This document shows positions 1,247 to 24,200 of a stretch of 60,657 nt of DNA, piece by piece. Position numbers and translations under genes: made by a program. This DNA is from Thermoanaerobacter sp. A7A (GTDB lineage Bacteria; Bacillota; Thermoanaerobacteria; Thermoanaerobacterales; Thermoanaerobacteraceae). The notes under the pieces were generated by a model. It had not been told where the DNA came from, searched no databases, and was given only the letters and a program-made list of their open reading frames with translations. Position 1 is the first letter of the stretch; every line of letters starts with the position of its first letter. Where the stretch lies: positions 1-60,657 of the forward strand of contig NZ_AVAF01000164.1 of NCBI RefSeq assembly GCF_000445185.1, given 5' to 3'.

Positions 1247-1320
1247 TCATTGAGATGGCTTTGCAATTTTTTAAGATTACCTATTTCTTACACTCCTTTT
1301 TTGGTTTAAAAAGAGCTTGT

Positions 1321-1344
1321 AAATATTCGATTTATCGAATATTT
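1321..1344. promoter_or_regulatory. Perfect palindrome, possible ArsR/SmtB-type operator
   Basis: AAATATTCGAT at 1321-1331 and its exact reverse complement at 1334-1344 are separated by two T residues. Eleven-base arms with an ATATTCGAT-like core resemble ArsR/SmtB operators (imperfect ATA...TAT dyads). A broken BASS/ACR3-like permease fragment begins about 200 bp downstream, which fits a decayed arsenic-type or metal-responsive operon. The binding protein is not in the window, so this is inference. Confidence 0.4.
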
Positions 1345-1383
1345 AAGTTAAAATATTTTAGCCTACTGGCCAAAATATCACAA

Positions 1384-1530
1384 CTATTTTTTATTACTTT
1401 CTGAAGGAACCAACAGTGTCCCATTAAGCGTTCCAATCAAAGACTTTATAAAAGTGCTTATCCACAATATAGCAAGTAAAATTGCTAATAATACTGTATA
1501 CCAGTATATAAGCTGTATTTTTGTATACAT
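1384..1530 (-). CDS. Small hydrophobic frame, 48 residues, possible membrane peptide
   Basis: The minus-strand frame starts with ATG at 1530-1528 and ends with TAG at 1386-1384. It encodes MYTKIQLIYWYTVLLAILLA followed by ILWISTFIKSLIGTL and a polar tail. One or two membrane segments would fit between residues 6 and 34. I see no convincing Shine-Dalgarno sequence, and it lies in a region of gene debris. It could equally be the end of a lost membrane protein. I do not recognise a family. Confidence 0.22.
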   Translation of the reverse strand: MYTKIQLIYWYTVLLAILLAILWISTFIKSLIGTLNGTLLVPSESNKK

Positions 1531-1539
1531 AAATACATT

Positions 1540-1899
1540 AAAAGCCGGCAAAGTTGCCTTGCTGAAGGAGATGTTGAATTAAGCACTATGATTGTGGCTT
1601 TAAGTTTTATTGCTGCAATTTTTGCAGTTCCATTTTGGATGAGGATTTTTGCTTCTCATACGAACGTTCCTGTACCGACAGGTCAACTACTTATGTCTAT
1701 ATTAGAAGTTCTTATTTTGCCAATGGATTTAACAAGGACTTTGTTAGTGAAAGCTACTGCTGCTTTTTCTCCTATGGTTGCTATACCAGCGGCTACCATG
1801 CCTATCTTTCAGATTATTTTACTGATTTTATATCTTAAATTAGGGCCTTGGATAAAGAAGAAGTATCCAAGACACATAAATTATATGGAATGCAGATAG
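1540..1899 (+). pseudogene. BASS-family (bile acid:Na+ symporter/ACR3-like) permease, C-terminal fragment
   Basis: The frame reads LAEGDVELSTMIVALSFIAA, then NVPVPTGQLLMSILEVLILP and TRTLLVKATAAFSPMVAIPA. The 'GDVxLS...ALS' motif followed by a VP-rich segment and long hydrophobic helices is the pattern of the second half of BASS/ACR3 transporters (sodium-coupled organic anion or arsenite export). Only about a third of the roughly 300-residue family length is present and no RBS precedes the first ATG at 1588. It ends directly against a lipoamide dehydrogenase fragment, indicating a deletion joint. Family call moderate. Confidence 0.45.
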
Positions 1900-8992: not shown

Positions 8993-10612
8993 TTGATAGA
9001 TATAAAAAGATATGTTTGGGATTTTGATATAAAAAAAGATGATATAGCCACATTTGATGTTGTGATTATAGGAACTGGGGTGGCGGGGCTATATACTGCT
9101 GTCAACCTTGACAGAAGGCTAAAGGTTGCCATGGTTACTAAAGAAACAATTCAGATTAGCAATACCACCCTTGCTCAGGGTGGTATTGCAGCACCCATTA
9201 GCAGCGATGATAGTCCAGATATCCATTATATGGACACTATCAAGGCAGGGGCTGGCTTGTGCAGCTCCAAAATGGTAAGAATATTAGTAGATGAAGCTCT
9301 ACTTAATATAGAGATCTTGTTAAATATGAGGATTCCTTTTGATTTGGATGATGAAGGCGAAATTGTTTTAGGTCAAGAAGGAGCTCATAGCAGAAAAAGA
9401 ATAATTCATGCAAGCGGCGATGCAACAGGAAGAATTATCTCAGAGCATTTGGGCTTGAAATTAAAGACATATGAAAATGTTACAGTTTTTGAAAATACAT
9501 TTTTAGTAGATATAATAACAATTGACAATACTGCCGTAGGTGTTTTGCTCTCGCAAAAGGAAAAGAATTTAATTCTATTTGCAAAATATATAGTATTAGC
9601 ATCTGGTGGATATGGGTATTTATATAAATACACTACAAATCCTGAGGTAACCACTGGTGATGGTTGTGCTGTAGCTATAAGATGTGGTGCAAAAGTTGTT
9701 GATATGGAGTTTGTGCAGTTCCATCCCACTGTTTTATTTCATCCAATGAACAAGAGCTTTTTAATCTCAGAGGCGGTCAGAGGAGAAGGTGGGATACTAT
9801 ACAATATCAAAGGCGAGAGATTTATGTCAAACTACCATCCTTTAGCCGAACTAGCTCCGCGAGATGTTGTTGCAAGATCTATTTATTTTGAAATGCAAAA
9901 GACAAATGCTGAAAATGTTTTTTTAGATGTCACTCATCTTGACAAGGAGTTTATAAAAAGAAGGTTTCCTAACATATACAGTAATTGTATCAAGTTAGGA
10001 TTGGATATAACCAAAGAAAGAATACCAGTAGCTCCTGCTCAGCATTATAGTATGGGTGGTGTGTTATCAGACGAAAATGGAAGGACCACAGTTGAGAACC
10101 TGTTTGTATGCGGTGAAGCTGCAGGGACAATGGTCCATGGCGCAAATAGACTAGCATCTAACTCACTTTTAGAGGGTTTGGTCTTTGGTCGAAGAATTGC
10201 ACAGTTTATTAATAATCATCAAGTGGGAAGTCTAAAAATTACTTCTATTATTAGTCACAAAGAAGAGTATGAAAATGTCAACTTAGATATAATTTCCGAA
10301 ACTGAGCTGCTAAGAGAAAAGATGAGTTCTCAAGCAGGAATAGTTAGGGAAAAAGATGGTTTAAGAAACCTTTTGGATTTTTTAATAATTAAGTTAGACT
10401 ATCTAAAAAATAAAAAACTCCAAACTTTAAAAGAGATAGAGTTTTATAATATGCTCACAGTAGCGTACCCAATTGTTCAAGCAGCATTGACGAGAGAAGA
10501 AAGCAGAGGTTCTCATTATAGATGCGACTTTCCACAACAGGATGATACTAATTGGAAAAAGCATCTTACATTTTGCTTAAATGGTTGGGAGGTAATTGAT
10601 GTAAATGCTTAA
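8993..10612 (+). CDS. nadB: L-aspartate oxidase
   Basis: NadB oxidises L-aspartate to iminoaspartate with FAD, using fumarate or another acceptor in anaerobes. The FAD-binding VVIIGTGVAGLYTAVNL (near residue 20), the substrate-domain HPTVLFHP, GEGGILYN and the C-terminal ANRLASNSLLEGLVFGRR are all present. The start is uncertain: TTG 8993 has GGAG nine bases upstream and gives an N-terminus of usual length, while ATG 8978 lacks a Shine-Dalgarno site. It overlaps nadC at its end, consistent with translational coupling and a NadA-NadB complex that channels unstable iminoaspartate. Confidence 0.94.
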   Translation: MIDIKRYVWDFDIKKDDIATFDVVIIGTGVAGLYTAVNLDRRLKVAMVTKETIQISNTTLAQGGIAAPISSDDSPDIHYMDTIKAGAGLCSSKMVRILVDEALLNIEILLNMRIPFDLDDEGEIVLGQEGAHSRKRIIHASGDATGRIISEHLGLKLKTYENVTVFENTFLVDIITIDNTAVGVLLSQKEKNLILFAKYIVLASGGYGYLYKYTTNPEVTTGDGCAVAIRCGAKVVDMEFVQFHPTVLFHPMNKSFLISEAVRGEGGILYNIKGERFMSNYHPLAELAPRDVVARSIYFEMQKTNAENVFLDVTHLDKEFIKRRFPNIYSNCIKLGLDITKERIPVAPAQHYSMGGVLSDENGRTTVENLFVCGEAAGTMVHGANRLASNSLLEGLVFGRRIAQFINNHQVGSLKITSIISHKEEYENVNLDIISETELLREKMSSQAGIVREKDGLRNLLDFLIIKLDYLKNKKLQTLKEIEFYNMLTVAYPIVQAALTREESRGSHYRCDFPQQDDTNWKKHLTFCLNGWEVIDVNA

Positions 10613-11441
10613 CTTTATTGCCATTGATAGATTGATAAAAGAGGCACTTTTAGAGGACATGCCATATGGAGATATAACAACCGATTTGCTAATACCTGAC
10701 GAAAGCGTTTCAGATGCCATTTTAAAGGTTAAAGAAGATGGGATTTTATGTGGAATAGATGTAGCAAAGAGAGTATTTTTTTTGTTGGATGAGAATATAA
10801 GATTTGAGAAGTTGAAAAAAGATGGAGATAGGATAAAAAAGGGAGAGATTATTGCCAAGATTCAAGGAAATTCTAGAGCAATTCTAAAAGGAGAGAGATT
10901 GGCTTTAAATCTTATTCAAAGGATGAGTGGAATTGCTACAATGACAAACAAATATGCAGAGAAAATAAAGAACTATAAAGCGGTTGTGACAGAAACAAGA
11001 AAGACAATGCCACTTTTACGAATGCTTGATAAATATGCGGTATTTATAGGTGGTGGTAAGAATCATAGGTATTCTTTATCTGATGCAGTATTGATAAAGG
11101 ATAATCATATAAAAGCTGTTGGAAGTATAAAAGAGGCTATTGCAAGCGCAAAAAAGAGCATTCCACATACTATGAAAGTTGAGGTTGAAGTAAGAAACAT
11201 TGATGAGTTCAAGGAAGCGTTAGAGGCAGGAGCAGATATTATCATGCTTGACCACTTTACTATTGATCAATTGAAAGAAGCTGTTTTACTGGCGGAAGGC
11301 AGGGTTTTGATTGAAGCCTCTGGAAATGTTACTCTTGAGAATATTGAAGAGATTGCAAAAACAGGTGTGGATATAATTTCTGTTGGAGCAATTACTCATT
11401 CGGTTGAAAGTCTTGATATAAGCCTTGATTTTGTTGATTAA
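10605..11441 (+). CDS. nadC: Nicotinate-nucleotide pyrophosphorylase (quinolinate phosphoribosyltransferase)
   Basis: NadC converts quinolinate and PRPP to nicotinate mononucleotide and CO2. The 278-residue length fits. Motifs include LLEDMPYGDITTDLL near the N-terminus, RMSGIATMT, TRKTMPLLRMLDKYAV with GGGKNHRYSL, LIKDNH, and EVEVRN...ADIIMLDHF. The ATG at 10605 overlaps the nadB stop by 8 bp and has GGAGGT at 10587-10592. It closes the nad operon; no terminator is evident before the next unit. Confidence 0.95.
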   Translation: MLNFIAIDRLIKEALLEDMPYGDITTDLLIPDESVSDAILKVKEDGILCGIDVAKRVFFLLDENIRFEKLKKDGDRIKKGEIIAKIQGNSRAILKGERLALNLIQRMSGIATMTNKYAEKIKNYKAVVTETRKTMPLLRMLDKYAVFIGGGKNHRYSLSDAVLIKDNHIKAVGSIKEAIASAKKSIPHTMKVEVEVRNIDEFKEALEAGADIIMLDHFTIDQLKEAVLLAEGRVLIEASGNVTLENIEEIAKTGVDIISVGAITHSVESLDISLDFVD

Positions 11442-11458
11442 AATTGTGGGGGGAAGAG

Positions 11459-11530
11459 ATGCTTAAAAAGGTATGTTGTCCATTGGATGATTGCAACTTT
11501 CGATATCTTACCTGCCGAATTCAAGTTTAG
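11459..11530 (+). CDS. Tiny cysteine-rich frame (23 residues) before the AAA+ gene
   Basis: A purine-rich GGGGGGAAGAG directly precedes ATG 11459. The frame encodes MLKKVCCPLDDCNFRYLTC and four more residues before a stop at 11528-11530, 16 bp before the AAA+ ATPase start. Four cysteines in 23 residues (CC-x4-C-x6-C) is striking. It may be a small metal-binding peptide, a leader peptide, or the truncated N-terminus of a zinc-ribbon protein. No family is recognised. Confidence 0.35.
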   Translation: MLKKVCCPLDDCNFRYLTCRIQV

Positions 11531-11546
11531 AAAGGAGGAATTTTAA

Positions 11547-12638
11547 ATGGGTAAGGAAAAAATTGCAGTGGCATTGGCAGTACAGGCAAAAGTGCCTGTT
11601 ATTTTATGGGGAGATCCTGGAACAGGCAAAACATCTTTTATTATTTCGCTGGGAGAACAGCTCGGCATCCCAGTGGAAACAGTAATAGCCTCTATACGGG
11701 AACCGAGCGACTTCTCAGGGCTTCCCATCATAGTCAACGGGGAAGCAAAAATGGCGCCGCCTGCATGGGCAAAAAGGTTGGCGGAGGCAGGAGAAGGACT
11801 TTTATTTCTAGACGAGATTTCCACTGCTCCGCCGGCTGTTCAGGCAGCTTTGTTAAGAGTCGTCCTAGATAGAGTAGTGGGCGACTTGAAACTGCCTGAC
11901 GGCATAGCAGTAGTGGCAGCTGCTAATCCACCTCAGCAGGCAGCATACGGATGGGACTTGACACCAGCGCTGGCTAACAGGTTCTGTCACATAGATTGGA
12001 AACCCAACGCTAGTGAGTGGGTAGAAGACTTCGTAATAGACTTTAAGAAAGAAAAAGAAAATATACCCCTTCTTCCAAAAGATTGGAAGAAGGGGTTAGC
12101 AAAGACAAAGAACCTTATTGCAGCATTCATACATGCTCGCCCACAGCTGCTTCATCAGCTACCAAAGGAGGAGAGCTATGCTGGCCGTGCATGGGCGTCA
12201 CGACGTTCATGGGAAATGACCGCCTACTTGATGACAGCAAGTGATGCTGCTGGAGCAGATGAAGATGTAAAAATCATCCTTACTGCAGGCTGTATAGGGG
12301 AAGGAACAGCGATAGAATTTCTAGCTTGGGTAAAGGATTTAGATCTGCCCAACCCAGAAGACCTTTTAAAAAATCCCGCGAGCTTTAAGCTTCCGACTCG
12401 CGGCGATAAGGCCTATGCAGTATTGGCTGGTGTAGCCCAGGCTGTTGTAGAAAAGCCGACAAAAGAAAGATGGCTTGCAGCTTGGGAGATATTAGGAGAG
12501 GCAGCCAAGCAGGGAGGACGGGACATAGCAGCAGGGGCGATCAGGATCCTCATCACTGCAAGACAGAAAGACTTCCCGCTGCCAACGAAGCAGATACAGG
12601 AATTCGTCACGCTCCTAAAAACTGCAGGACTGATCTGA
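11547..12638 (+). CDS. MoxR-type AAA+ ATPase
   Basis: This 363-residue ATPase has Walker A GDPGTGKT (residues 22-29), Walker B LLFLDE (85-90), sensor-1-like VVAAANPP and the LTPALANRFCHIDW segment where the arginine finger is expected. After the AAA+ core the C-terminal 180 residues are helical and family-specific. MoxR-type ATPases act as chaperones remodelling VWA-protein partners, and a VWA gene lies 315 bp downstream on the same strand. AAAGGAGG sits eight bases before ATG. The gene is noticeably more GC-rich than the nad and ridA genes, which suggests acquisition. Function of the pair here is unknown. Confidence 0.85.
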   Translation: MGKEKIAVALAVQAKVPVILWGDPGTGKTSFIISLGEQLGIPVETVIASIREPSDFSGLPIIVNGEAKMAPPAWAKRLAEAGEGLLFLDEISTAPPAVQAALLRVVLDRVVGDLKLPDGIAVVAAANPPQQAAYGWDLTPALANRFCHIDWKPNASEWVEDFVIDFKKEKENIPLLPKDWKKGLAKTKNLIAAFIHARPQLLHQLPKEESYAGRAWASRRSWEMTAYLMTASDAAGADEDVKIILTAGCIGEGTAIEFLAWVKDLDLPNPEDLLKNPASFKLPTRGDKAYAVLAGVAQAVVEKPTKERWLAAWEILGEAAKQGGRDIAAGAIRILITARQKDFPLPTKQIQEFVTLLKTAGLI

Positions 12639-12654
12639 CATGCTCTCTTTTTTA

Positions 12655-12680
12655 TTGTTTTTTAAAAAACATGGTATAAT
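12655..12680 (+). promoter_or_regulatory. Extended -10 promoter upstream of the VWA gene
   Basis: TGGTATAAT at 12672-12680 is a textbook extended -10 element. The -35 is weak: TTGTTT at 12655-12660 leaves a 14-bp spacer, and the 17-bp position holds TTATTG. It would start a transcript with a leader of roughly 270 nt before the VWA gene. Confidence 0.5.
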
Positions 12681-12686
12681 AAGAAT

Positions 12687-12953
12687 ATAATTAAAAAGAT
12701 TGCCGACATAATTTCTCTTTTCTATAAAGAGGTAGTCTGTAAAATCCTTAAAATGTTTTTTTGGAACATGCAGAAAGCATAAAGCATGTTAATTATTTTA
12801 AAATTACTTGTTTAAGAAATTTAATAAATGAAAGACGAGAGAAACAGCAGAAATATTTTTGCTGTTTTAAAACTTTTTAAAGTGAAATTAAGGGGAATTC
12901 AGTAATTTTTTTATAATTTTGAATTCCTCTTTTTACAAAAGGAGAGGGTTTTT
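12687..12953 (+). promoter_or_regulatory. Structured 5' leader with four hairpins before the VWA gene
   Basis: The 315-bp gap between the AAA+ and VWA genes has no frame I believe, but four successive hairpins. CTCTTT/AAAGAG lies at 12715-12731. AACATGC/GCATGTT lies at 12765-12790. AAACAGCA/TGCTGTTT lies at 12842-12867. AGGGGAATTC at 12891-12900 pairs with GAATTCCTCT at 12921-12930, with one G-T pair, and is followed by a short T run. The last hairpin looks like an attenuator placed just before the AAAGGAGAGGG ribosome site. I do not recognise a known riboswitch class. Confidence 0.45.
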
Positions 12954-14174
12954 ATGCTGTTACCTCCAAAAATGCAGGCTGCAAGGTTCAGGCTTATTCA
13001 AGAAAGGCCGTACCTTGCCTCAGCTCTGTGGGCTCTGCAGACTGTTGAAAAGCCAGGGCTAGGAACGATGGCAGTAGACAGAAGATGGCGGTTATATTAT
13101 GATCCTGCAGTAGAAAATATATGGAGCATAGAAGAGATCATGGGTATTTTGTATCACCAAACTCTCCACATGCTGCGGGATCATGCAAACAGACTTGTAA
13201 ACTTTCCGCCAGACATTGCAAACATTGCAGCCGATGCAGAAATAAACGACGACATCTTAGCAGAAAAAATAAAACTTCCAGAAGAAGCGATAACTCCTGA
13301 AAAGTTAGGGCTGCCCCCAAAACTCCTTGCCGAAGAATACGCAGAAAAAATTATGGAAAAACAAAACACATCCTCAGCTTGGAATTCCCCTACTGCCAAT
13401 GATCAAAAAGAGGGAAACATACCACAGCCTGCAGCAGGGAGGTGCGGTTCAATTGCAACAGGACAGCCCGAACCGTGGGAACTCCCAGATACAGATAAAG
13501 AAACCCCGGGTATTTCAAGTGCAGAGCAAGAAATTATTAGAAAAGAAGTAGCAACTGCAATAAAAGCAGAAGCATCAAAAGATATAGGCGCTGTTCCAGC
13601 ACATCTAACACGCTGGGCAGAAGAAAAATTAAAACCCAAAATTAATTGGAGAAAAGAACTTGCTTCTGTTGTAAGGAATGCAACTGCAACAATATCAGGC
13701 ATGGTGGATTATTCATACAGTCGTCCATCAAGGAGACAAAGTACAATACAAAATGTTGTCCTGCCTTTCCTAAGACAGCCTACACCAAGTGTTGCAGTTG
13801 TTGTCGACACGTCAGGCAGTATGTCAGACAACATGTTGTCGCAGGCACTTGCAGAAATTGACGGTATATTAAAATCTATGGGATTAAGAGAAGGAATAAA
13901 ATACATTGCCTGCGACTACAACGTACATGTTGTCGACAAAATAACAAACATAAAACAAATTAATTTAAAGGGTGGAGGTGGGACAAATATGGGAAAAGGA
14001 ATTGAAGCAGCAGCAAAGTTAAAACCACGTCCAAATATCTGTGTGGTTTTAACAGATGGCTATACATCATGGCCTGATAATCCACCACCAAAGATGAAAA
14101 TAATAATTGGGCTTATAAACAACGAAGATGTAGAAGTACCAAGGTGGGCCAAAAAGGTTGTGATAAAAGAGTAG
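12954..14174 (+). CDS. DUF2201-type protein: degenerate metallopeptidase-like domain plus VWA domain
   Basis: The 406-residue protein combines an N-terminal putative metallopeptidase-like domain (about residues 1-150), a polar Pro/Glu-rich linker (about 150-210), and a C-terminal VWA-like domain. The first has LYHQTLHMLRDHANR: H68 and H72 are placed as in HExxH, but glutamine (Q69) replaces the catalytic glutamate. The VWA domain has the MIDAS motif VVDTSGSMS (about 283-291), a GGGGTNMGKGIEAA segment and VVLTDGYT. Pairing of COG3864/DUF2201 VWA proteins with MoxR ATPases is established. Its own promoter and leader imply separate control from the ATPase. Ends in a strong terminator. Confidence 0.85.
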   Translation: MLLPPKMQAARFRLIQERPYLASALWALQTVEKPGLGTMAVDRRWRLYYDPAVENIWSIEEIMGILYHQTLHMLRDHANRLVNFPPDIANIAADAEINDDILAEKIKLPEEAITPEKLGLPPKLLAEEYAEKIMEKQNTSSAWNSPTANDQKEGNIPQPAAGRCGSIATGQPEPWELPDTDKETPGISSAEQEIIRKEVATAIKAEASKDIGAVPAHLTRWAEEKLKPKINWRKELASVVRNATATISGMVDYSYSRPSRRQSTIQNVVLPFLRQPTPSVAVVVDTSGSMSDNMLSQALAEIDGILKSMGLREGIKYIACDYNVHVVDKITNIKQINLKGGGGTNMGKGIEAAAKLKPRPNICVVLTDGYTSWPDNPPPKMKIIIGLINNEDVEVPRWAKKVVIKE

Positions 14175-14205
14175 TATCTTTTTTGGATACTGCTCTTATT
14201 TTTTT
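14168..14205 (+). terminator. Intrinsic terminator overlapping the VWA stop codon
   Basis: AGAGTAGTATC at 14168-14178 pairs with GATACTGCTCT at 14186-14196 (11 bp, one G-T pair), followed by TTATTTTTTT. The stem includes the last codon and stop of the VWA gene. Confidence 0.85.
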
Positions 14206-14439
14206 ATAGGTTCGTTGTCAAGAGTTGGGGTGGGTATTTTCTGGATATCTGTCTTTGCTTTTTAGATTAGAGCACAATATCATTATTAGAAACTTTATAC
14301 AATGAATGTAACTCTATTATACTAACCAATATTGATGAAACATGTCTAGTAGTGGTGATAAAAACATCTGATTCTAGTTCAAGGGATTTTTATAGAAAAA
14401 TTTGGGTTTGACCGTAAAATTAAAAAACCAGCAAAAAAA

Positions 14440-14468
14440 TTGACATTTTAAACTCTACAGATTAAAAA
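14440..14468 (+). promoter_or_regulatory. Candidate sigma-A promoter of the repeat-protein gene
   Basis: A consensus TTGACA at 14440-14445 is followed after 17 bp by TAAAAA (14463-14468), a weak -10. The 230 bp before it (14206-14439) hold no gene I can support. Confidence 0.45.
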
Positions 14469-14500
14469 TAATAGTAAAGAGGGAAAAAGAGGTGAATACA

Positions 14501-15964
14501 GTGAAATACCAAGAGGCTTATAAATTATTAAGTGACGGATATCGCTTCGATCCGCAAAAAGAGAAAAAAATATTAAAGCTAAAAAATGAAAGAGGCTGGA
14601 CAATAGCCCATGAGCAGGCAAAAAACGGATACCGATTTGATCCTGTTCGTGATAAAGACATATTAATGTTAAAGAGCATCAACGGAGAAACTGTGGCACA
14701 TGTGCAGGCGTCATGCGGATATAGATTTGACCCGATACGTGACAAAGAAATATTAATGATAACAGATAAAAAAAGGCAAACGGTAGCACATATACAAGCA
14801 AAAAAGGGTCACTTTTTTGATCCTGTTTGCGATAAAGGAATATTAATGCTGGCAGATAAGGAAGGTTGGAGAGTAGCTCATGAACAGGCGAAGAGGGGAT
14901 ACATTTTTGACACCCTAAGAGACAAAGGAATATTAATGCTGTCCACTTATGATGGCTGGGCAGTAGCCCATCAGCAAGCAGAAGAAGGATATTTTTTTAG
15001 CCCTAAAAAAGACAAAGATATATTAAAACTTGCTGATAAATATGGAAGAACCGTAGCTCATATACAGGCACGAAAAGGCTATATATTTGATCCTGTCAAT
15101 GACAAAGAGATACTCACATTGAAAGATAAAAACAACTGGACAGTAGCACATGTCCAAGCTTTTTATGGTTATATATTTGATCCTGTTAAAGACAAAGAAA
15201 TACTCATGTTGGCAGATAACAACGGTTGGACAACAGCCCATATACAAGTATTACGGGGGAAATACGCATTTGATCCTGTTCGCGACAAAAAAGTATTAAT
15301 GCAAGCAAACAAAAGTGGATTAACAGTTGCCCATTTCCAAGCAAAAAATGGATACAAATTTGACCCAGTAAGGGATAAAGAAATTTTAATATTGGCAAAT
15401 AATGATGGATACACAGTAGCACACGAGCAGGTACTGCAGGGATACTTTTTCGATTTGGTACGCGATAAAGATATTTTGAAAATCAGTGATTCCACAGGTG
15501 AAACAGTTGCATGGCAGCAGATAAGAAACATGAGAACGGAAGAATTAAGAGAGTTAAAAGAAGAAGAAATAGTAAACGTATTAAAACTCACTGCGAATAC
15601 AAAAACAGGAGACACGATAGCACACATGCTTATAAGAAAGAGAAGAATCAAAATTAAAGAAATTGTACCAAATCACTACAAAGAAATATTCATGTTAACA
15701 AATAATGATGCCTGGACAGTAGCACATGAGCAAGTATCAGTCGGATATTATTTTGATCCTGTGAAAGAAAGAGAAATATTAATGTTAAAAGACAAAAATG
15801 GGCAAAGTGTAGCTCACATACAAGCAAGTAGAGGATATATATTTGATGTTGAAGGAGACAAAGAGATCTTGGAACTGACTAATAATGATGGAGTGTCAGT
15901 AGAAGAAATACGAAACGAAAAAATTATTGAAATACTAATAAATGGAAATAAAGACAAAAAATAA
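14501..15964 (+). CDS. Ankyrin-like tandem-repeat protein (about 14 repeats of 30 residues)
   Basis: The whole 487-residue protein is built from 30-residue repeats with the consensus GYxFDPVRDKEILML, then xDKNGWTVAHxQAxx. About 11 run in direct succession; a divergent insert (about residues 345-400, TEELRELKEEEIVNVLKL) interrupts them, then three more follow. 'D-x-x-G-x-T-V-A-H-x-x-A-x-x-G' matches the first helix and turn of ankyrin repeats, though the unit is three residues shorter. Such scaffolds usually bind proteins. GTG 14501 is preferred since GAGGTG lies six bases upstream; GTG 14492 is in frame. It follows the MoxR-VWA pair on the same strand. Confidence 0.8.
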   Translation: MKYQEAYKLLSDGYRFDPQKEKKILKLKNERGWTIAHEQAKNGYRFDPVRDKDILMLKSINGETVAHVQASCGYRFDPIRDKEILMITDKKRQTVAHIQAKKGHFFDPVCDKGILMLADKEGWRVAHEQAKRGYIFDTLRDKGILMLSTYDGWAVAHQQAEEGYFFSPKKDKDILKLADKYGRTVAHIQARKGYIFDPVNDKEILTLKDKNNWTVAHVQAFYGYIFDPVKDKEILMLADNNGWTTAHIQVLRGKYAFDPVRDKKVLMQANKSGLTVAHFQAKNGYKFDPVRDKEILILANNDGYTVAHEQVLQGYFFDLVRDKDILKISDSTGETVAWQQIRNMRTEELRELKEEEIVNVLKLTANTKTGDTIAHMLIRKRRIKIKEIVPNHYKEIFMLTNNDAWTVAHEQVSVGYYFDPVKEREILMLKDKNGQSVAHIQASRGYIFDVEGDKEILELTNNDGVSVEEIRNEKIIEILINGNKDKK

Positions 15965-15990
15965 AAATATAAAAAAGAAGGTGAATTACC

Positions 15991-16068
15991 GTGGAATATG
16001 TATGTCCTAATCTTTCAGAAACAATCTTAGGATTAAATAATCAAATTTGTCTGCAATTTTCCGTCTAA
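15991..16068 (+). CDS. Tiny frame (25 residues) after the repeat protein
   Basis: GAAGGTGA precedes GTG 15991 with good spacing. The frame encodes MEYVCPNLSETILGLNNQIC plus five residues and stops at 16066-16068. It lies 26 bp after the repeat-protein stop, so it would be cotranscribed. It may be a genuine micropeptide or the start of a deleted fourth gene of the island. No family is recognised. Confidence 0.3.
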   Translation: MEYVCPNLSETILGLNNQICLQFSV

Positions 16069-16198
16069 AACATTAAAAAACACAAGGAAAATGAGATTTT
16101 TCTCTTTTTATTTCAATATTACGTTATTTTTCAGTGGGTTTAGTATTAAAATTTTTGAGAACAAAAGAGTGCAAAAAAATTATGATTATTAAAAAATA

Positions 16199-16228
16199 TT
16201 GAAAAGCCGCAAATATTAATGATATAAT
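16199..16228 (+). promoter_or_regulatory. Sigma-A promoter of ridA
   Basis: TTGAAA at 16199-16204 and TATAAT at 16223-16228 with an 18-bp spacer, about 60 bp before the ridA start. Confidence 0.65.
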
Positions 16229-16286
16229 ATTTACGTACCTGATTTTTAAAATATTGTATAACACTTTTACTGAAAGGATGGGATAA

Positions 16287-16664
16287 ATGAAAACCATAAT
16301 AAACACCGATGCTGCTCCAAAAGCTATTGGGCCATATTCTCAAGCTATAATGGTAGACGGCTTTTTGTACACGTCAGGGCAAATAGCAATTGATCCTGCT
16401 ACAGGAGAATTTGTAGAAGGAGGTATTGAAGCGCAGACGGAAAGGGTTTTAGAAAACATAAAAGCGATTTTAAAAGCTGCGGGGATGGACCTTAACAATG
16501 TTATAAAGACAACTGTATTTGTCACTAACATGGGGGATTTTGCAAAAATTAATGAGATTTATGGAAGGTATTTTAAAGACAATCCACCTGCCCGTTCCTT
16601 AGTTGAAGTAAAAAGTCTTCCTAAGGGTGCGCTTATAGAAATAGAAGTTGTAGCACATAAATAA
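16287..16664 (+). CDS. ridA: RidA family reactive enamine/imine deaminase
   Basis: RidA hydrolyses reactive 2-aminoacrylate and related enamines released by PLP enzymes such as threonine dehydratase, protecting other PLP enzymes. The 125-residue length is typical. Signature features include AIGPYSQAIMVDGFLYTSGQ, the QTERVLENIKAIL helix, and the C-terminal PARSLVEVKSLPKGALIEIE with the conserved arginine that binds substrate carboxylate. ATG follows GAAAGGATGGG. It stands alone between a good promoter and a terminator. The window has several PLP enzymes that could supply substrate. Confidence 0.93.
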   Translation: MKTIINTDAAPKAIGPYSQAIMVDGFLYTSGQIAIDPATGEFVEGGIEAQTERVLENIKAILKAAGMDLNNVIKTTVFVTNMGDFAKINEIYGRYFKDNPPARSLVEVKSLPKGALIEIEVVAHK

Positions 16665-16770
16665 AATTTTCTCTTATGGTGATAGTTTTACAATGTCTGG
16701 CCAAAAAGATGCGCTTGAGCCTTCAATATTAAGACATTTTACTGCGAGATTAGAACTGATAGAATTAATA

Positions 16771-16799
16771 AGGGGATGGCAATTCACCATCTCCTTTTT
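16771..16799 (+). terminator. Intrinsic terminator after ridA
   Basis: AGGGGATGG at 16771-16779 pairs with CCATCTCCT at 16787-16795 (one G-T pair) followed by TTTTT. The preceding 100 bp after the ridA stop hold no gene. Confidence 0.75.
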
Positions 16800-16898
16800 C
16801 TCTATAAAAATATTGAAAACTGTGATAAAATGAATATATGCATAAATTTGTAGAAGGAAAATCGGCATTTATATAGAATATATTGATAGGTGAGAGAT

Positions 16899-18086
16899 GT
16901 GAAAAGGTTAGCTAAAATTATAGTTATATTATTGGTGATAGTTTACATAAGTAAAGTAGGGATAACGACTTTTGCAAACAAAAATAAAACTACAGTAGTG
17001 ATTTATGGAAGTATTTTAATAGCCTTTAATGCCCAAGGATATGTTATAAAGAATGAAATGATGATAAATGCTCCTTTTGATGGTAAAATAAAAAAACTTG
17101 TACCAAGTGGAGAAAAAGTTTCCAAAGGTACTCCTATTGTGCAAGTTTATTCTGCCGATTTTGATGAGGAGAAACTACATCAATTAGATGAGATAAACAG
17201 AGAACTAAAAAATCAGGATACTAATATACCTTTTTATTCAGATGTTCAAAAATTAGACAACATGATAAAGACAGAAGAGCAAAATTATCAAAATGCGATA
17301 CAGCAAAATAGCCCTGATGCAGATAAAATACAAAAAAGGATTGAAGACTTAAAAGCCAAAAAAGAAGAAATTTTAAGTAAAGGGCCAATAATACTTCAAA
17401 GAATTGAAAACTTAAAAGAGCAAAAAGAGTATTTAGAAAAGTATGTAGAAAAAAATGCGATTACTATAAATTCACCAGAGTCAGGAATTGTAAGTTACTA
17501 TTTTGATGGCAGTGAAAGTATTCTAAATGAAAGAAATATGTTCAATTTAAATCCGACACAACTTGAAAATTTAAACTTTCAATCCAAAGAAATTAGTACA
17601 GAAGTAAAAGGAGATTACCCTTTTGTAAAAATAGTGGATAATTTGGAGTGGTATTTAGCGTTGGTTTTAAATGAAAAACAACAGGACTTATTAAAAGAAG
17701 GTAGTAATGTGAAAATTTTGATTGATAATTATAGTGGTGAATTGCGGGGAAAAGTTATAAAAACCTACAAAGGTGACGATAAATTATATATAGGAATAAT
17801 TGAGATGATAGATGAATATCCCAACTTTTATAAAACTTCTAAAATAAATGTAAAAGTTAAAGTTAAAGAGTTCAATGGACTTAAAATACCTCTTTCTTCT
17901 ATTGTGCAAAAAGAAGGAAAAGAAGGAGTTTTTGTAATAAAAAATGGCAAAGTTCCTACTTTTAAAGAAGTAGTAATAAAGGCTACAGATGGCAAATATG
18001 CAATTGTAGAAAGCGTTGATAAAACATCTGGATTAAAAATATATGACGAAATAGCGGTAAATGGAGAGGATTACTTGAGCAAATAA
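16899..18086 (+). CDS. HlyD-like membrane-anchored adaptor protein of the ylm cluster
   Basis: The 395-residue protein begins with a single membrane anchor (KRLAKIIVILLVIVYISKVG). It has a biotinyl/lipoyl-like HlyD segment (INAPFDGKIKKLVPSGEKVS), a long coiled coil (about residues 100-190, rich in E, K and Q), and a beta-rich C-terminus with LSSIVQKEGKEGVFVIKNGK. This is the architecture of HlyD/membrane-fusion adaptors, but no transporter gene is nearby. It sits 5' of yggS-sepF, where related Firmicutes keep similar proteins of unknown function. GTG 16899 is preferred over GTG 16890 because AGGTGA precedes it. Its stop abuts the yggS ribosome site. Confidence 0.75.
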   Translation: MKRLAKIIVILLVIVYISKVGITTFANKNKTTVVIYGSILIAFNAQGYVIKNEMMINAPFDGKIKKLVPSGEKVSKGTPIVQVYSADFDEEKLHQLDEINRELKNQDTNIPFYSDVQKLDNMIKTEEQNYQNAIQQNSPDADKIQKRIEDLKAKKEEILSKGPIILQRIENLKEQKEYLEKYVEKNAITINSPESGIVSYYFDGSESILNERNMFNLNPTQLENLNFQSKEISTEVKGDYPFVKIVDNLEWYLALVLNEKQQDLLKEGSNVKILIDNYSGELRGKVIKTYKGDDKLYIGIIEMIDEYPNFYKTSKINVKVKVKEFNGLKIPLSSIVQKEGKEGVFVIKNGKVPTFKEVVIKATDGKYAIVESVDKTSGLKIYDEIAVNGEDYLSK

Positions 18087-18098
18087 GGGGGGATAAAT

Positions 18099-18797
18099 AC
18101 GACTATATGTGAAAATATAAGAAAGATAAAGGAAAACATAAAAGAGCATGCGTTAAGGGTAAACAGAAATCCAGAGGAAATATTAATTGTGGCAGCTACT
18201 AAAACTTTCGGTGTAGAGACTATAAAAGAGGCTATTGCTTGTGGCATAACTGACATAGGTGAGAATAAGGTTCAAGAGTTAAATGAAAAATATCCTTATT
18301 TAAAAAATGAGGTAAAATTTCACTTTATAGGACATTTACAGACAAACAAAGTGAAATACATTATTGACAAAGTTAAGTTGATACATTCTTTAGATAGTAT
18401 TAAACTGGCAGAAGAAATAGACAAAAGGGCTAAACAAAAGAGTCTCATAATAGATTGTTTGGTGGAAATCAATATTGGTGGAGAGGAAAGTAAATACGGA
18501 ATTCCTCCTGAAGAAATGCATAATTTTGTTAAAGAAATGGAAAAATATGATAATATAAGAATTAGAGGGCTTATGGCAATAGCTCCTTACCTTCCACCAG
18601 AAGAGGTAAGGCCCTATTTTAGAAAGATGAAAGAATTATTTGAAGAGCTAAAAGAAATTAAGCAACATAATGTACAAGTAGAATTTTTGTCAATGGGTAT
18701 GTCCAATGACTATTGGGTAGCAGTTGAAGAAGGGGCGAATATTGTTAGAATTGGCACTTCTATTTTTGGGCAAAGACAATATAATGTGGAGGGATAA
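18099..18797 (+). CDS. yggS: YggS/YlmE family PLP homeostasis protein, apparent ACG start
   Basis: YggS binds PLP without known catalysis and balances vitamin B6 pools. The fold's N-terminal strand holds the PLP lysine in ILIVAATKTFGVETI; DIGENKVQEL, HFIGHLQTNKVK, GLMAIAP and LSMGMSNDYWVAVEEG are all conserved. Recognisable homology starts at ICENIRKIKENIKEHALRVN, upstream of any ATG, GTG or TTG in frame. The codon at the expected position (18099-18101), six bases after GGGGGG, is ACG where ATG would be expected. The first standard start is GTG 18189, which would remove about 30 residues including helix 1. I annotate the full frame. Confidence 0.8.
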   Translation, partial: TTICENIRKIKENIKEHALRVNRNPEEILIVAATKTFGVETIKEAIACGITDIGENKVQELNEKYPYLKNEVKFHFIGHLQTNKVKYIIDKVKLIHSLDSIKLAEEIDKRAKQKSLIIDCLVEINIGGEESKYGIPPEEMHNFVKEMEKYDNIRIRGLMAIAPYLPPEEVRPYFRKMKELFEELKEIKQHNVQVEFLSMGMSNDYWVAVEEGANIVRIGTSIFGQRQYNVEG

Positions 18798-18800
18798 TTA

Positions 18801-19214
18801 ATGTCTTCAAAAATGATTGATAAATTAATGAGTTTCTTTGGTATCGATGAGCCAGAAGAAGAGAAAGAAGAAGTAGACTCTTTACAACCTGTCATACCTT
18901 ACGATAGAAAGCCTAAAATTGTCAATATTCATACACAGCCCCAAGTAAAAGTTTTGATTTTAAAGCCAGAAAAGTTTGAACAAGTGATGAATATATGTAA
19001 TGAATTGAAAAATAAAAAACCGGTGATTGTAGATTTACAAAAGATGGACAAAAATGAAGCTCAAAGAGTAGTGGATTTTTTAAGCGGTGCAGCCTATGCT
19101 CTTAATGGAGAGATAAAGAAGATATCTGGCTATATATTTTTAGTTGCGCCTGAGAATTTTGATATTACAGGGGATATAAAAGATGAAGTAAATTCTTTAT
19201 ACAATCTAAATTGA
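18801..19214 (+). CDS. sepF: Cell division protein SepF
   Basis: SepF bundles FtsZ filaments and anchors the Z ring to the membrane through an N-terminal amphipathic helix. The 137-residue protein starts with a helix-forming segment (SSKMIDKLMSFFGIDE), has an acidic linker, then the conserved core: VKVLILKPEKFEQVMNICNE, KKPVIVDLQKMDKNEAQRVV and DFLSGAAYALNGEIKKISGY. GGAGGG precedes ATG. It is located four bases after yggS and upstream of yggT, the usual order of the ylm cluster. Confidence 0.95.
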   Translation: MSSKMIDKLMSFFGIDEPEEEKEEVDSLQPVIPYDRKPKIVNIHTQPQVKVLILKPEKFEQVMNICNELKNKKPVIVDLQKMDKNEAQRVVDFLSGAAYALNGEIKKISGYIFLVAPENFDITGDIKDEVNSLYNLN

Positions 19215-19224
19215 TAAGGAGGAA

Positions 19225-19533
19225 ATGATTTTGCCTGTAAATTTTGCAATTTTAACAGCATTAGATTATTTTTTTGAAGTTATAAATTGGCTTATATTGA
19301 TAAGGGTTATTTTATCTTTGCTACGAATGGAGAATATGTCAAATCCACTTTCTCGCTTTGTGATCGTAACGACAGAACCAATACTTGAGCCTTTTAGGGC
19401 ATTACAATTTAGGTCTTCTATTGGAAGAAATTTAATGATAGATTTTTCGCCAGTTTTGGCGATTTTGGTGATTCAGTATTTAGTTCGTCCTTTAGTTTTT
19501 AAATTAGTATTATTACTGATGAGGTATATATGA
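19225..19533 (+). CDS. yggT: YggT/YlmG family membrane protein
   Basis: The 102-residue protein has two hydrophobic regions: NFAILTALDYFFEVINWLIL with IRVILSL, and a C-terminal LAILVIQYLVRPLVFKLVLL. Between them lies the family signature NPLSRFVIVTTEPILEPFRA. YggT/YlmG proteins lie with SepF and are linked to envelope or osmotic functions, with no defined biochemistry. It overlaps ylmH by four bases, which indicates coupling. Confidence 0.9.
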   Translation: MILPVNFAILTALDYFFEVINWLILIRVILSLLRMENMSNPLSRFVIVTTEPILEPFRALQFRSSIGRNLMIDFSPVLAILVIQYLVRPLVFKLVLLLMRYI

Positions 19534-20276
19534 TGGACAAGGAATTTACTGTATCCCGATTTGAAGACATAATTAAAGGCGTTTTAAAATCTAAAAGAGT
19601 AAAATATACAGACTTTTTAAGCCTCTCTGAACAAAAAATTTTTGAAAAAACTATATTAAAGTATCGACAGCAAGATATAAACTATAATCTAGATGGAGGA
19701 TATCCTTTAGCAGAAAGAAAGATAGCAATTATTTACCCCGATTTTTTACAGCCGGAAGATACCCCTATTTGCGCTGTAAGAATTGAAGGCAATTTTTCTA
19801 AGCTATCTCATAGAGATGTGTTGGGTTCACTTTTAGGGTTAGGGATAAAAAGACAAAAAATAGGCGATATAATTGTAAAAGAGGATAAATGTGACATATT
19901 GTTACATAAAGATGTGGAAAGTTATGTACTTATGAACCTTTTTAAAGTCGGGAAAGAGAAGGTAAGAGTTAATTCAATTGACTTGAAAGATGTGATAGAA
20001 CCTGAAATAAAATATAAGGACATTTTTTCTACCGTAGCCTCACTACGGGTTGACAGTGTGGCAGCTGCAGGTTTTGGTATATCAAGGACGAAGGCTTCAG
20101 AACTTATAAAGTCCGGTCTTCTTCAAATAAATTGGGAGTATACAGAAGACCCTTCTTCAGAAGTAAAAGAGGGAGATGTAATTTCTTTACGTGGTTTTGG
20201 AAGAATTAGATTAGAAGAAGTGAGAGGTAATACAAAAAAAGGTCGCGTTTCTGTACATATTCTAAGGTTTATATAA
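19530..20276 (+). CDS. ylmH: YlmH RNA-binding protein with C-terminal S4 domain
   Basis: The 248-residue protein has an N-terminal region with GYPLAERKIAIIYPDF and HRDVLGSLLGLGIKRQKIGD, then an S4 RNA-binding domain (about 175-235, VAAAGFGISRTKASELIKSG ... VKEGDVISLRGFGRI). YlmH homologues bind stalled large ribosomal subunits and act in ribosome rescue in Bacillus. Start is ATG 19530 or 19533, in the overlap with yggT. It is the fourth gene in the cell-division cluster. Confidence 0.92.
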   Translation: MMDKEFTVSRFEDIIKGVLKSKRVKYTDFLSLSEQKIFEKTILKYRQQDINYNLDGGYPLAERKIAIIYPDFLQPEDTPICAVRIEGNFSKLSHRDVLGSLLGLGIKRQKIGDIIVKEDKCDILLHKDVESYVLMNLFKVGKEKVRVNSIDLKDVIEPEIKYKDIFSTVASLRVDSVAAAGFGISRTKASELIKSGLLQINWEYTEDPSSEVKEGDVISLRGFGRIRLEEVRGNTKKGRVSVHILRFI

Positions 20277-20303
20277 TGTTACAAAAGAAAAGGAGGTAAT
20301 ATT

Positions 20304-20789
20304 ATGCTGACACCTATGGATATACACAACAAAGAATTTAGGCGGTCTTTTAGGGGTTATAATGAAGAAGAAGTTGATGAGTTTTTGGATAAAATTATGG
20401 AAGATTATGAGTTATTATACAAAGAGAATGCAGAGTTAAAAGATAGAATTAACATAATGAATGAAAAGCTCCAAAGTTATATCAACATGGAAACTACTTT
20501 AAATAATACTCTAATTGTCGCTCAAAATACTGCCGAAGAGTTAAAGAGAAATGCAGAAAAAGAAGCACAGCTTATAATACAAAATGCTCAACAAAATGCA
20601 GAAAAAATATTGGAAAAAGCAAACCAAGAAGTTGTAAGGATAAGAATGGAATTAGAAAGGTATCGCAAACAGCTCAATGTTTTTAAAGCTAAGTTTAAAG
20701 CTCTGTTAGAAGCACAATTAGAAGCGATCCTTTCCATAGATGAGAAAGAATTGATTCCAGATGAGGAAGAGGAGAAGGATGCAGAATAG
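20304..20789 (+). CDS. divIVA: Septum/pole site protein DivIVA
   Basis: DivIVA recognises negatively curved membrane and positions division or sporulation proteins. The 161-residue protein has the N-terminal lipid-binding domain LTPMDIHNKEFRRSFRGYNE followed by EEVDEFLDKIMEDYE, and then long coiled coils rich in Q, E and A (AQNTAEELKRNAEKEAQLII). The conserved F/R pair inserted in the membrane is present (RRSFRG). AAAGGAGGT is optimally placed. The gene overlaps the next by 11 bases. Confidence 0.96.
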   Translation: MLTPMDIHNKEFRRSFRGYNEEEVDEFLDKIMEDYELLYKENAELKDRINIMNEKLQSYINMETTLNNTLIVAQNTAEELKRNAEKEAQLIIQNAQQNAEKILEKANQEVVRIRMELERYRKQLNVFKAKFKALLEAQLEAILSIDEKELIPDEEEEKDAE

Positions 20790-21024
20790 ATTAGGGGTTG
20801 TTGGAATATTGATTCAAAATAGAGAAAATGTGGCGGATAGGGTAAATCACATATTGAGTGAGTACGGCCACATTATTGTAGGAAGAATGGGTATACCCTA
20901 TAAAGATAGGGGAGTATCGGTTATCGCTTTAATAGTTGATGGTACAACGGATGAAATAGGGGCTCTTACTGGTAAACTTGGAAGTCTTCATGGGGTAAAA
21001 GTGAAATCTGCTCTGACTGCATAG
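20779..21024 (+). CDS. TM1266-type iron-only hydrogenase system regulator homologue
   Basis: The 81-residue ACT-like/NikR-C-like protein reads RLGVVGILIQNRENVADRVN, then EYGHIIVGRMGIPYKDRGVS and VDGTTDEIGALTGKLGSLHG. These are the hallmark motifs of the TM1266 family, found next to [FeFe]-hydrogenase maturation genes in many anaerobes and annotated as putative regulators. ATG 20779 has GAGGAGAAGG directly upstream inside divIVA; an earlier in-frame ATG at 20761 would add Arg-rich residues with no RBS. No hydrogenase gene is in the window. Confidence 0.8.
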   Translation: MQNRLGVVGILIQNRENVADRVNHILSEYGHIIVGRMGIPYKDRGVSVIALIVDGTTDEIGALTGKLGSLHGVKVKSALTA

Positions 21025-21036
21025 ATATGTATACTA

Positions 21037-21065
21037 TTGACGAAAAACTTGTGGTATTATATAAT
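21037..21065 (+). promoter_or_regulatory. Sigma-A promoter of ileS
   Basis: TTGACG at 21037-21042 and TATAAT at 21060-21065 are separated by exactly 17 bp. Transcription would begin near 21073, just before the T-box stem I. Confidence 0.8.
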
Positions 21066-21089
21066 TGTGTAAAAAATATTGTTAAAAGC

Positions 21090-21320
21090 TATGATGAGGA
21101 CGAGTAAGTAGAAGCAACTTCCAGAGAGTTGGCGGTAGGTGCGAGCCAATAAGTTCGTTTCTACTGAAAATCACCTCGGAGCTGCAGGCTGAACTACAGT
21201 AAGCTGTGCCGGGCTTCCCGTTATCTTAAATGAGAGATTAAGGCAAAGTTTTTCTTTGTCTTAATAAGTAGGGTGGTACCGCGAACTTCTCGTCCCTGAC
21301 GAGAAGTTTTATTTTTAGTT
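21090..21320 (+). promoter_or_regulatory. T-box riboswitch (isoleucine) of ileS
   Basis: The leader opens with GAGGACGAGTAAGTAGAAGC, typical of stem I. The specifier loop around CTGAAAATCACC offers ATC (21170-21172), an isoleucine codon. The T-box core GGGTGGTACCGCG is at 21271-21283; its TGGT bulge would pair with a tRNA end of A73-CCA. The terminator is AACTTCTCGTC at 21284-21294 with its perfect complement at 21298-21308 and a T-rich tail. Uncharged tRNA-Ile should stabilise the antiterminator and raise ileS expression. Confidence 0.93.
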
Positions 21321-21354
21321 TGAAAGATAATATTTGAAGAGGAGGTAATGTTCA

Positions 21355-24153
21355 GTGGATTACAACAAGACACTTAATTTGCCGAGGACAGATTTTCCTA
21401 TGAAGGCTAATTTGCCAACACGAGAGCCAGAGATATTAAAAAGATGGGAAGAAATGGATATTTATCATAAAACATTGGAAAAAAATAAAGGCAAGGAAAA
21501 ATATATTTTACACGATGGGCCGCCTTATGCTAATGGAGATATACACATTGGAACTGCTATGAATAAGGTATTAAAAGACATTATAGTGAAATACAAAACA
21601 ATGAGGGGTTATGATGCTCCTTATGTGCCAGGATGGGATACACACGGTCTTCCTATTGAACAGCAAGCTATAAAAACTTTAGGTATAAAAAGGCATGAAG
21701 TAAGTCCTACAGAATTTAGAAAAGTGTGTAGGGATTTTGCTTTTTCTCAGATTGAAAAGCAAAAAGCTCAATTCAAAAGATTGGGAGTAAGGGGAGATTG
21801 GGATAATCCTTATCTTACCTTGAATCCGGAGTATGAAGCTAAACAGATAGAAGTATTTGGTGAAATGGCTAAGAAAGGCTATATCTATAAAGGTCTAAAG
21901 CCTGTATATTGGTGCCCCAGCTGTGAGACTGCTTTGGCAGAAGCAGAAATTGAATACTTTGATGAAACCTCTGATTCTATTTATGTAAAATTTAGAGTTA
22001 AAGATGATTTAGGGAAATTCAAGGGAATTGTTGAGAATCTTAATAATGTGTATTTTGTAATATGGACAACTACTACATGGACTATTCCGGCTAACCTTGC
22101 AATTGCTTTAAATCCAGAGTTTGATTATGCGCTTGCAAAGTTTGGAGACGAAGTATATATAATGGCAAAAGACATGTTAGATACTGTAAAGAAAGAAGCT
22201 AACCTTTCAGATTATGAAATAGTTGCTGTATTTAAAGGAAAAGATTTGGAGGGCATGAAGGCTACCCATCCTTTATATGACAGAGATTCTTTAATAATCT
22301 TGGGTGAGCATGTAACTTTAGAAGCTGGTACTGGATGTGTTCATACTGCTCCCGGCCATGGCGAAGAAGACTTTTTAGTTGGGCAAGAGTATGGGCTTGA
22401 GGTTTTAAATCCAATAGATGATAAGGGATATTTTACAGATAAAGCGCCAGGATATGCTGGTCTGTATTATGAAGAGGCTAACAAGGTCATAAAGGAAGAC
22501 TTGAAAAAAGCTAATGCATTAGTGGCAGAAACCCGTATTACCCACTCATATCCTCACTGTTGGAGATGTAAAAGTCCAATAATATTTAGGGCGACAGAAC
22601 AGTGGTTTGCTTCTGTGGAAGGATTTAGAGAAGAGGCACTAAAAGCTATTAAAGAAGTTAATTGGTATCCTTCATGGGGCGAAGAGCGCATAACTAACAT
22701 GGTAAGAGATAGACGAGACTGGTGTATTTCAAGGCAAAGGGTATGGGGTGTGCCAATTCCTATATTCTACTGTGAAAAGTGTGGGAAACCGCTTATAAAT
22801 GATGATACAATAAATGCAGTTAAAAAGATCTTCAGGCAAAAGGGTTCAGATGCATGGTTTGAAATGTCAGCTGAAGAGATATTGCCAAAAGGGATTACTT
22901 GCGAATGCGGTTCTACGAAGTTTAGGAAAGAGACAGATATAATGGATGTGTGGTTTGATTCAGGCTCCAGCCATGCAGCTGTGTTGCAAACTCATCCTGA
23001 CCTAAAGTGGCCTGCAGAGCTTTATTTAGAAGGTTCAGACCAACACAGAGGATGGTTCCAGTCTTCCCTTTTGACATCTGTGGCAACACGTGGAAAAGCA
23101 CCTTATAGAAACGTATTGACCCACGGGTTTGTTGTAGACGGTGAAGGAAGGAAAATGTCAAAATCTTTAGGGAATGGTATTGACCCAGCTGATGTAATTA
23201 AAGAATATGGAGCAGATATTTTGAGGCTTTGGACTGTTTCTGCTGACTTTACTTCAGATATGAGAATTTCACAAGAGATTTTAAAACAGATGACAGAAGC
23301 GTACAGAAAAATACGTAACACTAGTAAGTTCTTGTTAAGCAATCTTTATGACTTTGACCCTGATAAGGATATGCTCCCTTACGAAGAGCTTTTAGAGATA
23401 GATAAATGGGCTTTATTTAGGCTTAACAGAGTAGTTGAAGAGCTTACAGAGGCTTTTGATAAATATGAGTATTACGATTTTCTCCATCTGGTTCATACCT
23501 TCTGTGTAGTAGATATGAGTAGCCTTTACCTGGACATTTTAAAAGACAGATTGTATACTTATCCTGCTACTTCTAAAGAGAGAAGAGCGGCTCAAACGAC
23601 ACTTTACATTATTTTAGACACTCTTGTAAGGTTGATAGCACCAGTGCTTACATTTACTTCAGAAGAAATATGGTCATATATGAAGCACGACAGTCAAAAT
23701 AATTTTGAAAGTGTTCAGTTAGCTGATTGGCCTCAAGTCCAAGAAAAATACAATAATCCTTATATAATAGAAAAATGGGAAAAACTTTTTGACATAAGAA
23801 AAGATATTTCTAAAGCTCTTGAAATAGCGAGAACTGACAAAAAGATAGGTCACTCTTTAGAGGCACAAGTGGATATATATCCATCTCAAGAGCTTTATGA
23901 TTTCTTTAAAGGCTTTAATGACCTCGAATATGTGTTCATAGTTTCAAAAGTGGTACTTCACCAACCAGAAGAACCTGCTCCTCAAAATGCTTATGAAAGT
24001 GATGATTATAATTTGAAGATTGTGGTAACCCATGCACCGGGGGAAAAATGCGAACGCTGCTGGATGTACAGTGAAACAGTAGGGACTATAAAAGAGCATC
24101 CAACTATTTGCGCAAGATGTGCTTCTCACATTGAGCAGCAAACACAAGTTTAA
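21355..24153 (+). CDS. ileS: Isoleucyl-tRNA synthetase
   Basis: IleRS charges tRNA-Ile. The 932-residue class I enzyme shows the HIGH-type motif in [18 protein letters not shown] near residue 60, an editing domain ([16 protein letters not shown]), KMSKS as [14 protein letters not shown] near 605, and a C-terminal zinc module with CERCW ... CARC. This length and the C-terminal zinc finger mark the bacterial type. It starts with GTG 21355 behind GAGGAGGTAATG. Controlled by the T-box upstream and ended by a strong terminator. Confidence 0.97.
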
Positions 24154-24175
24154 AAAGGGGATTTTTCCCCTTTTT
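24152..24175 (+). terminator. Intrinsic terminator after ileS
   Basis: AAAAAGGGG at 24152-24160 and CCCCTTTTT at 24167-24175 form a 9-bp stem with a six-base loop and T-rich tail. Confidence 0.85.
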
Positions 24176-24200
24176 AAACATTATTTTTAGGAGGGATATT

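Follow-up and report, generated by a model that had tools for sequence, protein, structure and literature searches.

A candidate attenuator leader between a MoxR-type ATPase gene and a VWA protein gene in Thermoanaerobacter sp. A7A

In a 60,657-nucleotide stretch of DNA from Thermoanaerobacter sp. A7A (hereafter the window), a MoxR-type ATPase gene is followed in the same orientation by a gene for a VWA-like protein, with a long intergenic gap between them. The question raised by this locus is whether the gap encodes a leader RNA that attenuates transcription of the VWA gene. If such a leader is real, the neighbouring MoxR/VWA chaperone halves, which presumably act together, would be uncoupled by RNA.

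The gap and its flanking genes

The ATPase stop codon ends at 12638 and the VWA ATG stands at 12954, leaving a gap of 315 nt (12639-12953, 23.8% GC) where the original prediction had counted 270 nt. The features of the locus are collected in Table 1. The match of the ATPase to bpMoxR is below the Pfam cut-off. MoxR-vWA ternary systems with a third partner are described in an excerpt of PMC7159879. A defence-system reading of the gene pair was rejected, since PADLOC matched the ATPase only generically, as AAA, and left the VWA protein without a match.

Table 1. Annotated features of the gap and its neighbouring genes (window coordinates)
Feature	Position	Strand	Evidence and remarks
MoxR-type AAA ATPase gene, 363 aa	11547-12638	+	Pfam AAA_5 1.3e-7, AAA_3; adjoins the VWA gene
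Extended -10 promoter box TGGTATAAT (likely)	12672-12680	+	Sequence; motif about tenfold more frequent in sense in G006 gaps than in shuffles
Hairpin 1, 7-bp inner stem	12714-12732	+	12700-12745 alone z -2.71; 3/200 shuffles fold as well
Hairpin 2, 7 bp, 12-nt loop	12765-12790	+	z -3.22; 1/200 shuffles fold as well
Hairpin 3, 12 bp, tetraloop	12841-12868	+	z -5.59; 0/200 shuffles fold as well
Hairpin 4 and T run, intrinsic-terminator-like, stem AAGGGGAATTCA/TGAATTCCTCTT, then TTT	12890-12934	+	z -4.72; 0/200 shuffles
TATAAT in hairpin 4 loop (rival promoter)	12912-12917	+	42 nt ahead of start codon; -35 match 3/6
Alternative hairpin 5 over ribosome site	12925-12948	+	z -2.40; 3/200 shuffles as good; excludes hairpin 4
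Ribosome-binding site AAAGGAGAGGG	12938-12948	+	Sequence; AAAGGAG begins at 12938
DUF2201_N / DUF2201 VWA-like protein gene, 406 aa	12954-14174	+	Pfam 3e-54 and 9.2e-27

Three further observations concern the VWA gene and the DNA beyond it. The HExxH metallopeptidase motif of DUF2201_N (13155-13169, a position derived from the residue number) reads HQTLH in the window and in a second genus genome, G006, which is probably T. kivui, and HExxH in three other aligned relatives; judging by these residues, the DUF2201_N peptidase of the window protein may be inactive. About 120 nt downstream of the gene (14201-14323) recur at 76-85% identity in several places of this and other genus genomes and constitute a dispersed repeat. 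The interval 14492-15964 encodes a 490-aa protein with many repeats of the type GYxFDPVRDKEILMLxDxxGxTVAHxQA, for which no Pfam family reaches the cut-off.

Promoter motifs and predicted folding

The original prediction placed an extended -10 promoter at the start of the gap, and the box lies just upstream of 12687, in a position that suits a start point there. In 837 gaps of G006, TGnTATAAT occurs 153 times in sense and 65 times in antisense, against 14.35 (sd 4.1) in shuffled gaps. At 250-300 nt ahead of a start codon, the motif is seen 12 times against 1.2 in shuffles, so that a promoter within the leader, with transcription starting near 12687, is likely on these sequence statistics. Transcripts of the ATPase gene may also read through into the leader, since the stretch separating the two showed no terminator. 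From the likely promoter, we infer that the VWA gene may be controlled separately from the ATPase gene.

The four stems originally described are borne out with slightly refined limits, the last one spanning 12890-12931, and each, folded alone with short flanks and compared with 200 dinucleotide shuffles, beats nearly all of them. Pairing was computed at 37 C and at 65 C, the latter being the temperature of an assay on T. kivui cells described in an excerpt of PMC4320612. Hairpin 1 has weak outer pairs (12700-12707/12735-12742) and, in the full context, a mean pair probability of 0.52 at 37 C and 0.37 at 65 C; for hairpin 2, the values are 0.32 and 0.26. Pairing of these two hairpins is thus predicted to be marginal at 65 C. 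Hairpin 3 is modelled with probabilities of 0.98 and 0.86, and hairpin 4 with 0.99 and 0.97, at an energy of -15.6 kcal/mol at 37 C and -6.2 kcal/mol at 65 C, the latter being inside the range for the terminators of 15 known leaders.

By its modelled fold, hairpin 4 looks like an intrinsic terminator. TTTTT at 12930-12934 both closes and trails its stem and is followed by AAAGGAG from 12938, in agreement with the short T run formerly noted right before the ribosome site. The hairpin with its T run ends 20-24 nt ahead of the VWA ATG and about 250 nt past the ATPase stop codon. It was located by an in-house script and not by the programs of PMC2965389.

As a whole, the leader (12687-12960) folds with a z of -4.04, none of 200 shuffles being as good. 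Among 131 gaps of at least 180 nt, taken with a simple ORF picker from the window and from twenty G006 pieces of 20 kb each, the leader itself included, it ranks 10th by folding z, and the two T-box leaders of the window rank 13th and 19th. Another gap of the window (1179-1587), ahead of an ORF near 1587 whose start codon choice is uncertain, ranks 8th with a z of -4.37 and has no Rfam match.

Two elements of this region were missed by the original prediction. The first is hairpin 5, which pairs the 3' arm and T run of the terminator with the ribosome site. Considered as a candidate for sequestering the ribosome site, it has an energy of -9.7 kcal/mol, equalled by a fraction of 0.02 of the shuffles in a second test, and a probability of only 0.01 while hairpin 4 can form; in the fold ensemble, hairpin 4 prevails over it at both temperatures.

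The second is the TATAAT of the hairpin 4 loop, and it speaks against the attenuator, since a candidate VWA promoter sits in the terminator loop itself. Hairpin 4 could be the terminator of an upstream unit (the ATPase gene and/or a short leader transcript), with VWA transcription starting near 12924 from a promoter inside the hairpin, a 30-nt untranslated region and an inverted repeat that could be an operator. This arrangement is unlikely. The distance of the box from the start codon coincides with the peak position in G006 (40-49 nt: 55 seen against 12.2 in shuffles), TATAAT boxes that lack TGn but match three of six -35 positions are seen 25 times at 30-55 nt against 11.4 expected, and no other terminator was found after the ATPase gene. 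However, the -35 match of the box is poor, the T-rich loop makes chance matches likelier, and TATAAT within 70 nt of the start is also present in 2 of the 15 known leaders. An operator is further disfavoured by one G-T pair of the stem, which is tolerated in RNA but breaks the DNA dyad, and by the half-site of the repeat, of which only two further copies exist in the G006 sequence examined. Nor would a promoter in hairpin 4 account for hairpins 1 to 3 or for the extended -10 box, which is statistically strong.

Terminator-like hairpins ahead of start codons

The company kept by such an architecture was surveyed in the 837 gaps of G006 (120 pieces, 2,392,627 bases) by selecting those in which a hairpin of -8 kcal/mol or lower is joined to a T run and ends within 45 nt of the start codon that follows. 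This census retains 46 gaps, this leader among them. Rfam assigns 15 of the other 45 to cis-regulatory families (four T-boxes, two TPP and two fluoride riboswitches, and one each of cobalamin, c-di-GMP-I, c-di-AMP, SAM, pan, magnesium and L10 leader) and three to RNA genes (two 6S, at loci L149 and L282, and one tRNA pair), 27 being without assignment. These 27 terminator-before-start gaps form a short list of orphan leader candidates in G006; they may also be nothing special, and this counts against the attenuator reading. In the 131-gap sample, a terminator-like hairpin lies at most 40 nt ahead of the start in seven cases; this leader is one, and the other six are a T-box, two TPP, a cobalamin and a c-di-GMP-I riboswitch, and a 6S RNA. 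In seven pieces scanned whole, a cis-regulatory match is found in 5 of 8 census gaps versus about 4 of 49 other gaps (Fisher p 0.0014), a rough figure because the pieces were chosen for census matches or high z and some of the four others may lie outside the counted gaps.

The census bears as well on whether 12687-12935 could be a separate small RNA gene, about 245 nt long and acting elsewhere, with the VWA gene expressed by read-through or from another promoter. Such a gene would share the anatomy of an attenuator, which weighs against the latter: the locus folds strongly and carries a promoter motif and a terminator of its own, and 3 of the 45 other census matches are RNA genes. Nevertheless, the terminator abuts the VWA ribosome site, a position in which known leaders outnumber RNA genes 15 to 3, the sequence is absent from 8 of 10 congener genomes, and it has no Rfam match, so that a small RNA gene appears distinctly improbable.

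Distribution among relatives

The ATPase and VWA genes are present in 2 of 10 genus genomes, namely the window genome and G006, and the leader was found only in these two, with 314/314 nt identical. No homologue of the leader was found in 149 relatives, which gave only short low-scoring matches, nor in 20 family genomes or plasmids. Viral contigs held no match for the exact hairpin 4 pattern, and the protein search there was likewise without homologue. A covariance model built on the single leader sequence and run over 61 genomes returned, beyond the two carriers, only look-alikes of hairpin 3. Its matches in genomes G023 (E 0.0075) and G004 (E 0.023) align to hairpin 3, one of them loosely to hairpin 2 too; they were discarded, as they look like terminators of other genes and are expected by chance over 61 genomes.

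The identity of the two leaders is uninformative on conservation and covariation because both copies lie in a near-identical tract. Positions 9166-16675 of the window are 99.59% identical to G006 (27 of 7514 sites differ), whereas 16725-24178 are 86% identical, with a sharp step near 16.7 kb. This pattern suggests recent exchange. The idea that the leader is under purifying selection was considered and set aside: given the 27/7514 tract differences, no change at all would be expected about 32% of the time.

A search of genome contigs with the VWA protein found 108 relatives; the 80 that were retained belong to Thermoanaerobacterium, Desulfosporosinus and actinobacteria. The ATPase and VWA genes are separated by two genes in Thermoanaerobacterium butyriciformans and by one in Desulfosporosinus sp. 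SRJS8, the VWA frame overlapping the last or only intervening gene; in D. acididurans, the place is taken by about 500 nt that hold no clear gene and look decayed. As relatives have other genes or apparently decayed sequence ahead of the VWA gene, the leader arrangement is not conserved, a point against the attenuator.

These neighbourhoods lend some weight to the gap being a non-regulatory AT-rich spacer left by the loss of genes between the ATPase and VWA genes, in which the hairpins arose by chance and the terminator is weak, and so does the lack of conservation beyond one near-identical tract. Against this origin, which we regard as quite unlikely, the gap has no protein trace of the genes lying between or near the ATPase and VWA genes of relatives (tblastn best E 0.025), so that a degenerate gene remnant was rejected; its folding is far beyond shuffles and beyond most other gaps, and its promoter motif is statistically strong.

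Known families, antitermination and leader peptides

In a scan of the whole window, no Rfam 15 family reaches its gathering score in the gap, as anticipated by the earlier remark that no known riboswitch core is recognizable. A lax scan of the gap gave eight matches, all far under their gathering scores (best E 0.95). The best is the PyrR pyrimidine attenuator (RF00515), whose likeness consists of a weak covariance match over 12869-12957, mostly two successive hairpins; it scores 21.6 bits versus a gathering score of 54, and no pyrimidine gene is seen adjoining the leader. This match is due to chance.

Pairing of an antiterminator with either terminator arm is not above that of shuffled leaders (fractions 0.274 and 0.124; second test, 0.195 and 0.205). 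This counts against an attenuator, but the test is weak, because at least one arm falls below 0.1 in only 9 of the 15 known leaders and also in 8 of the 27 census gaps without Rfam match. An attenuator based on a leader peptide was rejected: for each of the 13 start codons listed in the gap, the 15 nt checked hold nothing resembling a ribosome site. No literature on the leader and no transcript map of the organism appeared among the top matches listed.

Proposed regulation and comparison with known systems

The gap may be the 5' leader of the VWA gene with a transcription attenuator of an unassigned, lineage-specific type, a reading that we place a little short of an even chance. Transcription would begin near 12687 from the extended -10 promoter, and RNA polymerase would make hairpins 1 to 3 first. 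The terminator hairpin (12890-12934) would then halt most transcripts ahead of the ATG, and the VWA gene would be expressed only on terminator read-through. Were hairpin 4 disrupted, its freed 3' arm and T run could pair with the ribosome site, so that full antitermination would have to hold this arm elsewhere. A more elaborate version, in which hairpins 1-3 act as a hitherto undescribed, narrowly distributed sensor RNA and a coupled terminator/ribosome-site switch sets the dose of the VWA co-chaperone independently of the MoxR ATPase, is highly improbable.

The attenuating leader of the original prediction fits in anatomy and in company, a third of the other census gaps (15/45) being cis-regulatory. 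From this fit we infer that hairpin 4 ends transcription, that it does so under regulation, and that the VWA gene is the one served by the leader, the antiterminator test staying within chance. The attenuator reading is reasonable but unproven, as are regulation and the novelty of a class, and nothing in the leader is evidence for a new RNA class. The leader would be directly testable if G006 is Thermoanaerobacter kivui, for which a genome-editing tool has reportedly been published (PMC12044746).

Among known systems, the two T-box leaders of the window (RF00230) resemble this one as long structured leaders with a terminator just before the ribosome site, but this leader has no T-box match and no antiterminator above chance. 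The TPP, cobalamin and c-di-GMP-I riboswitches of G006 likewise share a folded region and a terminator 16-38 nt ahead of the start codon, whereas no aptamer family matches the leader. In the excerpts available from Naville and Gautheret 2010 (PMC2965389), attenuator candidates are filtered for a terminator that points the same way as the gene, lies no more than 300 nt from its first codon and is closer to the gene downstream. The leader has this geometry: its terminator points the same way as the VWA gene, with about 20 nt to the gene downstream and about 250 nt to the one upstream, and the -15.6 kcal/mol of hairpin 4 is close to the average of -16.5 given there for 5' terminators. The families of that study are ranked by cross-species conservation, whereas this leader is without an orthologous leader. 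The same excerpts report 15,930 attenuator candidates in 302 genomes. The evidence agrees best with an orphan attenuator candidate that looks ordinary, of the kind catalogued by the thousands in 2010, and, as it stands, the leader is one more such candidate on a long list.
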